Shown here: positions 45,801 through 53,913 of the stretch, piece by piece
How positions within the stretch are numbered: position 1 is the first letter of the stretch
Layout: every line of letters starts with the position of its first letter
Assembly (NCBI GenBank): GCA_947623225.1
Contig: CANQGO010000012.1
Span: 1-53,913, forward strand
Source: an uncultured Clostridia bacterium
GTDB lineage: Bacteria; Bacillota; Clostridia; Christensenellales; CAG-314
Reading direction: 5' to 3'
DNA: 53,913 nt
The notes under the pieces: generated by a model
Seen by the model: the letters and a program-made list of their open reading frames with translations, nothing else
Database searches by the model: none
What the model was told of the DNA's origin: nothing
Made by a program: the position numbers and the translations under genes

Positions 45801-45879
45801 GTTTGGTGTGTGCCGCGGTACCGCACTCGGGGCAAAACTTGCCCTCGAACTCCTTTCCGCAATTTTTGCAAGTATTCAT
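42868..45879 (-). CDS. multidomain membrane protein: zinc ribbons, membrane helices, InlB-type repeats, DUF6273-like C-terminus
   Basis: A 1003-residue chimeric protein. Residues 1-50 hold two zinc ribbons (CKNCG...CPECG, CPNCG...CSNCG) and should be cytoplasmic. About five membrane segments lie at 73-272. Residues 280-390 resemble a SmpA/BamE-like domain (IQLGDSYARVEKILGEPTTS) with a coiled coil at 315-355. Two to three InlB B-type repeats follow at about 465-680 (GYTFLGWYS, GYTFVGWYS). The last 300 residues match the DUF6273 pattern (TVTFGTYPQS, ITWRIF, WWLRSPDS ... GVVPALNITI), which has a C-type-lectin/sulfatase-like look. It probably senses or binds something outside the cell. It is preceded by a structured leader RNA with a terminator 30 nt before the ribosome-site region. 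Function unknown. Confidence 0.82.
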   Translation of the reverse strand: MNTCKNCGKEFEGKFCPECGTAAHTKPVCPNCGSELNEGAKFCSNCGCDLAAPQAQPAPRSAAVRFDWRRVLRYLPAALFALWAALLWAFYAAPVTKGDGFLIDTVNLYGVLEDDMMSDLFSSTYALIAVAAISCVYAAILAVVYIKGGKRVRNRCTYISFAFHIAIVICAAVFGSALNSYMEGFDDEKGSIVAVVIALTVVFAALQILSIILVRKFPAAECEPKSRQPRAKSHVPSKAKLWLSAHRALVVVLLVVLVLGATVGTVLPVVLGNIFRAGKVDNIQLGDSYARVEKILGEPTTSTETRYLYYSKNVANILKEIEQIEEQAETVTNFSQLSKLQSQLDKLEEELKTLEYKYIQVTFADGKVTSVLLDTKANDEIEDKTKKTESISLSEIPRYAKPENEDIYVSIYYNDGSYQRYKLTNITDSTDQQVFWSDEFGTYTADINYGSEIDVGSVLKVTLDPNGGWLADGESKQQEVVFGYEFSLPVPVKKGYTFLGWYSGDDQITDKNGNSISNDSLFESHKTLTAKYSSAIVYTITYHNVDGANNPNPTSYTVNDYNDFIDLEPATKSGYTFVGWYSDSSLQSKKDIISTSPLRDIELWAKWEYVQYHLTFNYDSNVGDFDGDKPTKYTIEGLTLPRLVGKNGNGHFGIAWRDQTGKIYTNEIPQGTTGDLSLTAMWSGQHNYDSNGRCTICNKLSFVSDDYKTVTFGTYPQSKVEDTALQSMLNAEIQNKLPSSDNANGWTDYGYYIEGEVQSYMWYVDVNYQKDKYRGVYFTSYRPYKTSYSSNAENTYQFDNGYNTNTVYWFKWETITWRIFNNDGGKALIMSDLIIDSQQYYHEDSGTRTIGGKTVYPNNYKESDIRKWLNTDFYNAAFDELSKKFIIQTEVDNSASTTGSSNNQYACENTLDNVFLLSYKEATNSSYGLNSSTRQLKTTDYAQCQGAYTATGSYKGCGWWWLRSPDSTYSYRAYSVGDGGDVGYVYYVSHTDRGVVPALNITI

Positions 45880-45909: not shown

Positions 45910-45942
45910 AAAAAAAGTGCCGCAACTATCGTTGCGACACTT
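45910..45942 (-). terminator. intrinsic terminator inside the leader of the 1003-residue gene
   Basis: On the minus strand AAGTGTCGCAAC and GTTGCGGCACTT pair across GATA, with one U-G wobble, then a T run. It ends 30 nt before the start codon of the gene at 45879 and follows no other minus-strand gene, so it acts as an attenuator or as the end of a small RNA. Confidence 0.85.
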
Positions 45943-46063
45943 GTAGAATATGCGCCTCGATAGTTACCACACTACTATCTTGCAGATCACGCAAAGATAA
46001 AAGACACATAACTCTACCAAAGGAGAGCATGCGAAATCTGCGTTATAAAGATAGTAATGTGGT
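45910..46063 (-). ncRNA. structured leader RNA / attenuator candidate, about 154 nt
   Basis: From the predicted start at 46063 the RNA folds into a 16-bp stem (46048-46063 with 45966-45981, one U-G pair). Inside it lie a second stem GCAGAU/AUCUGC (46036-46041 with 45982-45987), CGCA/UGCG and a small CUCUCC/GGUAGAG hairpin. After it come AACUAUCG (45958-45965) and its perfect complement CGAUAGUU (45924-45931). The latter lies in the terminator, so pairing would break the terminator. GAUAGU in the first stem can instead pair with ACUAUC. The odd pairs are U-G only if the minus strand is transcribed, which supports the orientation. The family is not recognised. It could be a riboswitch-like attenuator or an independent small RNA. 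Confidence 0.65.
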
Positions 46064-46069
46064 ATCTTG

Positions 46070-46098
46070 ATTGTACAACAATCAAAATGAATTGTCAA
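46070..46098 (-). promoter_or_regulatory. near-consensus sigma-A promoter of the structured RNA
   Basis: Minus-strand TTGACA (46093-46098), 17 bp, TACAAT (46070-46075). The predicted +1 falls at the first base of the 16-bp stem. Confidence 0.8.
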
Positions 46099-53506: not shown

Positions 53507-53512
53507 TATATT

Positions 53513-53588
53513 TGGAGCTACTAACCGGATTTGAACCGGTGACCCCGTCCTTACCAAGGACGTGCTCTACCTGCTGAGCCCTCAACCG
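53513..53588 (-). tRNA. tRNA-Thr(GGU)-like sequence, copy 1
   Basis: The D arm (GCTC-AGCAGGTA-GAGC), anticodon arm (CGTCC-TTGGTAA-GGACG, anticodon GGT, threonine), T arm (ACCGG-TTCAAAT-CCGGT) and an encoded CCA (53513-53515) are canonical. The 3' acceptor strand TAGTAGC needs GCTACTA at the 5' end, but the sequence there is unrelated (CGGTTGA), and bases 8-9 are GG rather than TA. It may be a 5'-altered pseudo-tRNA produced by tandem duplication. Confidence 0.5.
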
Positions 53589-53639
53589 AGCGATCAGCGA
53601 ACGTCGGCTCAGCGGATACGAAGAATTCGACAATATGCG

Positions 53640-53670
53640 AAAAAAAGAACTATCGCACACGCGATAGCTC
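53640..53670 (-). terminator. terminator after tRNA-like copy 2
   Basis: On the minus strand GAGCTATCGC and GCGATAGTTC pair (one G-U) across GTGT and are followed by TTTTTTT. The same hairpin recurs 163 bp on. Confidence 0.75.
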
Positions 53671-53675
53671 TTTTT

Positions 53676-53751
53676 TGGAGCTACTAACCGGATTTGAACC
53701 GGTGACCCCGTCCTTACCAAGGACGTGCTCTACCTGCTGAGCCCTCAACCG
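53676..53751 (-). tRNA. tRNA-Thr(GGU)-like sequence, copy 2
   Basis: Identical to copy 1, including the unpaired 5' acceptor strand and the encoded CCA. Followed 6 nt later by its own intrinsic terminator. Confidence 0.5.
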
Positions 53752-53802
53752 AGCGATCAGCGAACGTCGGCTCAGCGGATACGAAGAATTCGACAATATG
53801 CG

Positions 53803-53833
53803 AAAAAAAGAACTATCGCACACGCGATAGCTC
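53803..53833 (-). terminator. terminator after tRNA-like copy 3
   Basis: Same hairpin as at 53640-53670, one repeat unit further on. Confidence 0.75.
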
Positions 53834-53838
53834 TTTTT

Positions 53839-53913
53839 TGGAGCTACTAACCGGATTTGAACCGGTGACCCCGTCCTTACCAAGGACGTGCTCTACCTGC
53901 TGAGCCCTCAACC
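53839..53913 (-). tRNA. tRNA-Thr(GGU)-like sequence, copy 3, cut by the window edge
   Basis: Same as copies 1 and 2 as far as visible; the expected final base lies just outside. Whether this copy has a true 5' acceptor strand cannot be seen beyond the repeated bases. Confidence 0.45.

Follow-up and report, generated by a model that had tools for sequence, protein, structure and literature searches.

A trp-type attenuator is a cascade of alternative helices that ends in an intrinsic terminator, and in Clostridia the c-di-GMP-I and c-di-GMP-II riboswitches precede genes for surface proteins, with several copies in one genome. ZTP/pfl and fluoride are transcription-terminating riboswitches with pseudoknotted aptamers (PMC7337938, PMC11077080). 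A weak riboswitch candidate from 2024 is reported to have a terminator loop that pairs with a preceding hairpin, and an association with one-carbon metabolism (PMC11109978). We analyzed a leader RNA encoded on the minus strand of a stretch of 53,913 nucleotides from an uncultured Clostridia bacterium (contig CANQGO010000012.1; the whole stretch is termed the window). The leader is one member of a large and apparently undescribed family of RNA switches, present in a single order of Clostridia that live mostly in the gut; it is a new family inside a known kind, the transcription attenuators.

Five strands of the leader, termed a to e, are predicted to form two alternative sets of helices, a:b with c:d or b:c with d:e, the same cascade topology as in a trp-type attenuator. 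Here, however, the leader encodes no peptide that has a ribosome site, and the strands that change partners are located within a long stem and make up a pseudoknot. Leader-peptide attenuation was rejected, as none of the start codons listed has an SD sequence. With the ZTP/pfl and fluoride riboswitches the leader has in common that an apical strand forms a pseudoknot with a segment following the domain, and that this pseudoknot is linked to an intrinsic terminator. It differs from them in that whole-model searches gave no sequence or covariance match, in its much longer coaxial P1-P2 stem, and in that the apical hairpin is itself among the exchanged helices. The c-di-GMP-I/II riboswitches resemble it in their multiple copies per genome and their surface-protein genes, but there was no covariance match, and neither the window's genome nor 18 congeners yielded a GGDEF domain. 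c-di-GMP as the ligand was rejected on the finding of GGDEF (PF00990) in only six of 25 congeners, whose genomes are incomplete; among these incomplete genomes, none of G000, G005, G006, G008, G012, G014 and G019 has PF00990. In most of the congeners rich in copies no GGDEF domain was detected, so that c-di-GMP is unlikely to be the trigger in this genus. The T-box covariance model gave no match. Finally, the 2024 candidate is similar in pairing its terminator loop with an upstream element and different in its association with one-carbon metabolism.

The leader and its gene in the window

The leader is real and lies far beyond chance, since it has homologues with compensatory changes. The 158-nt RNA folds with -61.6 kcal/mol, compared to -33.9 ± 3.3 kcal/mol for shuffled sequences (z = -8.5), and none of 200 shuffles was as good. 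All its elements are on the minus strand. A sigma-70-type promoter (46098-46070), composed of TTGACA (46098-46093), a 17-nt spacer and TACAAT (46075-46070), predicts an A near 46063 as the +1 position; almost all relatives also have a near-consensus promoter immediately 5' of the leader. The long stem P1, of 16–17 bp, pairs 46064-46048 (segment 1) with 45981-45965 (segment 2). It is followed on the 5' side by an asymmetric A/U-rich internal loop (46047-46042), which is AAUA-like in many relatives, and by P2, whose strands (46041-46030 and 45993-45982) are defined by folds and covariation. The apical hairpin P3 is formed by strand a (46027-46022) and strand b (46017-46003), the latter preceded by the conserved apical G of a GGYA motif. 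Strand b is also the 5' strand of the pseudoknot, as indicated by pair conservation and permutation tests. Strand a is similar in sequence to the 3' part of strand c, and the two compete for strand b. Strand c is the tail (45964-45943), which comprises CUAUCG (45963-45958) of segment 3 (AACUAUCG, 45965-45958) and the pseudoknot strand GGCGCAUAUUCUAC (45956-45943). The hairpin of the intrinsic terminator (45942-45915) consists of strand d, its 5' half with CGAUAG (45931-45926) of segment 4 (CGAUAGUU, 45931-45924), and strand e, its 3' half. Including the U-run (45914-45908), the terminator AAGUGUCGCAACGAUAGUUGCGGCACUUUUUUU spans 45942-45908.

The ATG of the regulated gene lies at 45879, 30 nt past the terminator. 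The gene (45879-42868) encodes a 1003-residue protein in which Pfam detects a double zinc ribbon, membrane segments, InlB-type (Listeria-Bacteroides) repeats and a C-terminal DUF6273. The general order in the family is promoter, P1, A/U-rich 5' internal loop, P2, P3 with GGYA and a pyrimidine-rich linker, followed by the return strands of P2 and P1, a tail of about 22 nt, the terminator and then usually a ribosome site and a start codon. A preliminary description of the locus had placed the promoter, stem 1:2, segments 3 and 4, the terminator and the gene start exactly where we find them, and the analysis bears out its view that the leader is structured, has a promoter of its own and is followed by a terminator directly 5' of the gene. 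The same holds for its statement that no known riboswitch signature was recognised. None of the 4227 families of Rfam 15, 6S included, fitted the leader, whether the window was searched at the gathering score or the leader itself at E ≤ 10, and no Rfam family fits the related leaders at 40 loci. Searches by gene or structure terms found no description in the literature, supplements lying outside their scope.

Covariation and the exchanged strands

In alignments fitted to the P1/P2/terminator structure, the 42 close copies have 95.8% of cells paired over the 50 pairs of the structure with the pseudoknot, and 362 double-change cells, compared to 115 after shuffling and at most 80 when the strands are slid. 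The 12 terminator pairs are 98.8% paired in these copies, five of them with double changes. Among 73 diverse members of the superfamily, double changes occur in all 38 modelled pairs of P1, P2 and the terminator, including all 12 of the terminator, and amount to 816 cells versus 222 shuffled and at most 185 slid. Massive covariation is seen in stem 1:2 (P1), for which the preliminary description had suggested this test, and in the terminator; in P2 it extends to every scored pair. RNAalifold missed P2 on a MAFFT alignment, because sequence alignment fails at this stem; the covariance model recovered it. The outer part of P1 is conserved in sequence (ACCACA/UGUGGU; UGCNACACA in the superfamily). 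Few unpaired positions are conserved across subfamilies, namely GGYA, present in 123 of 147 members, and one C after P1; AAUA is found in 91 of 147, compared to 0.30 by shuffling.

The tail is complementary to two partners, to strand b in the pseudoknot and to strand d, here the 5' half of the terminator plus its loop, in the antiterminator. In the window these pairings are GUAGAGUUAUGUGUC with GGCGCAUAUUCUAC and CUAUCG with CGAUAG, respectively. Other subfamilies form the same pairing from different letters, AAACGGAGC with GCUCCGUUUG at locus L106 and GGGAAGCAUUUU with AAAAGUGCUUCCC at L216. Neither the pseudoknot nor the c:d pairs are part of the search models. The pseudoknot alone is 95.3% paired in the close copies, with 26 double-change cells, whereas slid versions are 16–60% paired. 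When an RNA's own strands were compared to strands swapped between dissimilar RNAs, none of 100,000 permutations was as good for 21 representatives, and the same was found for 14 representatives of 40 further matches (0 of 100,000). In these 40 matches the pseudoknot uses on average 15.4 tail nucleotides and the antiterminator 13.6, of which 10.5 are needed by both; the two are therefore mutually exclusive.

The antiterminator between segments 3 and 4, proposed earlier as the alternative to the terminator, also stands. In the window's subfamily CUAUCG:CGAUAG is 98% kept but invariant, so this subfamily alone shows no covariation for these pairs; across the wider family the two segments change in concert. 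In the window's subfamily the pseudoknot hardly covers CUAUCG, and the mutual exclusion is therefore weaker than in other subfamilies. The proposal of mutually exclusive helices was thus right about the antiterminator and wrong about its competitor, as the tail pairs with a strand of the apical hairpin, inside the 60-nt interior of stem 1:2. The moving part is predicted to be this 3' strand of P3, which pairs with the tail in competition with the hairpin and the antiterminator. P1 and P2 together form a long scaffold stem, P1 being scaffold rather than moving part. Mean duplex energies are -16.7 kcal/mol for the terminator d:e and -17.7 for the antiterminator c:d, and -18.4 for the pseudoknot b:c, its loop cost left out, versus -10.7 for P3 (a:b). 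With terminator and antiterminator so close, and b:c stronger than a:b, a modest bias from a ligand, a protein or folding speed could therefore decide between them.

Spread of the family and the genes downstream

A DNA search of 101 related genomes recovered about 40 copies of 70–97% identity, nearly all within the genus, whose genomes carry several each. When a covariance model describing P1, P2 and the terminator (R1) was run on 25 congeners, 20 had matches, as many as 14 in a single genome. Its weaker matches extend to 25 of 125 genera of the order, and a single weak one was found among 397 other genomes of the phylum. A second model (R2), built from these weaker relatives across the order, has more than 150 matches, in 61 of 200 genomes and 31 of 102 genera of the order (E ≤ 1e-6), and none in 198 other genomes of the phylum (E ≤ 1e-4). 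Copy counts are lower bounds, as candidates were pre-filtered per genome; the genomes are metagenome-assembled, the model E-values rough and the gene calls mechanical. We rejected the possibility that the weak matches arise by chance, since they vanish outside the order and retain pairings absent from the models. Nearly all named records with the motif of the window's subfamily belong to uncultured Clostridia in metagenomes of the rabbit gut, the rabbit origin being taken from isolate names. Searches of phages, plasmids and two scans of viral contigs gave no match to the leader, and an origin from phages or plasmids was rejected on the same grounds.

The window's own genome contains an intact leader of another subfamily before a membrane-protein gene (G000:C17:5085-5249, L124) and a shortened copy before a lipoprotein gene (G000:C3:66431-66538, L065). 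Tandem leaders of different subfamilies precede single genes on G004:C2, G004:C3, G004:C13, G012:C56 and G014:C14; at the tandem loci L120/L045, L121/L059, L122/L071, L037, L051 and L123 each leader has its own promoter and terminator. Three copies are found near SLOG genes on G008:C25 (L123).

In 141 cases the start codon of the gene lies a median of 30 nt 3' of the terminator. As classified by simple sequence rules, and checked with Pfam for 20 proteins, the downstream genes mainly encode lipoproteins with BspA-type LRR, InlB-type or collagen-like repeats. Further products are zinc-ribbon membrane proteins, the DUF6273 protein of the window among them, and SLOG proteins, two of the three tested belonging to the YpsA family, with single cases such as LicD, ROK and HTH proteins. 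SLOG-type genes (F-x-GHR motif) often begin 0–3 nt from the U-run of the leader (L123, L185, L186, L244, L102, L112, L117, L168, L180 and L090), and their ribosome site may therefore sit within the terminator hairpin. Some genes have a second promoter 3' of the terminator.

We also observed promoters with a run of 7–11 G in the spacer between -35 and -10 (TTGACA..GGGGGGGGG..TATA), at 73 sites in 18 of 25 congeners (e.g., G000:C16:29551-29578, C37:6046-6073 and C51:34-61; L247-L268); a set of 100 other genomes of the phylum has no such site. They sit mostly before lipoprotein genes, and at loci L052, L066, L071 and L087 between leader and gene. They look like slipped-strand phase-variable promoters. 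Finally, the contig end in the window (53511-53913) consists of 2.5 copies of a 163-bp unit with 100% identity, possibly an assembly artefact; each unit includes a tRNA-like stretch of 57 nt that was found by Rfam and missed by ARAGORN.

The proposed toggle and its competitors

The leader is most probably a cis-acting transcription attenuator that works as a five-strand toggle and regulates read-through. It has its own promoter and an intrinsic terminator right before the gene, on the same strand, and its antiterminator excludes the terminator, with compensatory changes across the superfamily. In the on state the apical hairpin a:b and the antiterminator c:d would form, and RNA polymerase would read into the gene; in the off state the pseudoknot b:c and the terminator d:e would end transcription after about 155 nt. 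This assignment of on and off is deduced from the terminator alone. An input on the P1-P2-P3 domain would pick the set of pairings during transcription; it is most likely a small molecule or ion, a protein being less probable, and the gene set suggests that surface-exposed lipoproteins and related proteins are tuned as a regulon.

One reading of the trigger, which we consider plausible if somewhat short of an even chance, is a small-molecule or ion riboswitch, with P1-P2-P3 as the candidate aptamer and a ligand that favors P3 or the pseudoknot. The complex pseudoknotted fold, the many copies per genome as in a regulon, the tandem copies, the conserved unpaired GGYA and AAUA-like loop, and an expression platform resembling those of known transcriptional riboswitches are all in line with it. 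However, invariant unpaired nucleotides across subfamilies are fewer than usual for a small-molecule aptamer, the diverse downstream genes lack a metabolite theme, and c-di-GMP is improbable in most congeners. A second reading, unlikely if worth considering, is that read-through is set by a protein that binds the RNA and captures P3 or the pseudoknot. The conserved outer P1 sequence and GGYA could be protein contacts, but no candidate regulator was identified, and the data do not separate this reading from that of a riboswitch.

A bistable, ligand-free switch that responds to temperature, Mg2+ or transcription speed and generates cell-to-cell heterogeneity of surface proteins appears still less likely. 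The on and off states would be close in energy, assuming a loop cost for the pseudoknot, the topology is constant while the sequence diverges, and the promoters with poly-G spacers occur on the same kinds of genes; a simple thermosensor, however, would not need a long scaffold and conserved loop residues. It is doubtful that the terminated product, about 155 nt long, is a trans-acting RNA of the 6S or base-pairing kind and that the gene uses another promoter. The strong promoter and terminator of the leader, and the second promoter after the terminator at some genes, would fit such an RNA, but it is neither 6S nor any sRNA in Rfam, its copies lie right before start codons (at the median distance given above), and the antiterminator covaries in cis, which an RNA acting in trans would not need.

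On a broader scale we tentatively propose, at slightly lower confidence than the riboswitch, an order-specific, riboswitch-like superclass: a new five-strand pseudoknot toggle with coexisting and tandem subfamilies and an uncharacterized signal that, together with phase-variable poly-G promoters, controls the surface proteome of uncultured gut Clostridia. The attenuator family, absent from Rfam, occurs in about one in three of the genomes sampled from an order that is large and mostly uncultured. Its structure, backed by strong covariation, offers a test bed for ligand discovery in orphan riboswitches, and the swap of an apical hairpin strand into a pseudoknot a defined, mutable mechanism. It also links unexplained gene groups, the BspA/InlB lipoproteins, zinc-ribbon DUF6273 membrane proteins and SLOG proteins, as a probable regulon.

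The control originally proposed, in which stem 1:2 opens, segments 2 and 3 pair and the terminator is freed, is extremely improbable. Although GAUAGU/ACUAUC does match in the window and the wider family gives a weak own-versus-other signal, the match belongs to this copy rather than to the family: of the six pairs, three are broken in 19–26 of the 42 aligned relatives. P1 is intact in every full-length copy, and to open it would take the loss of about 16 pairs.
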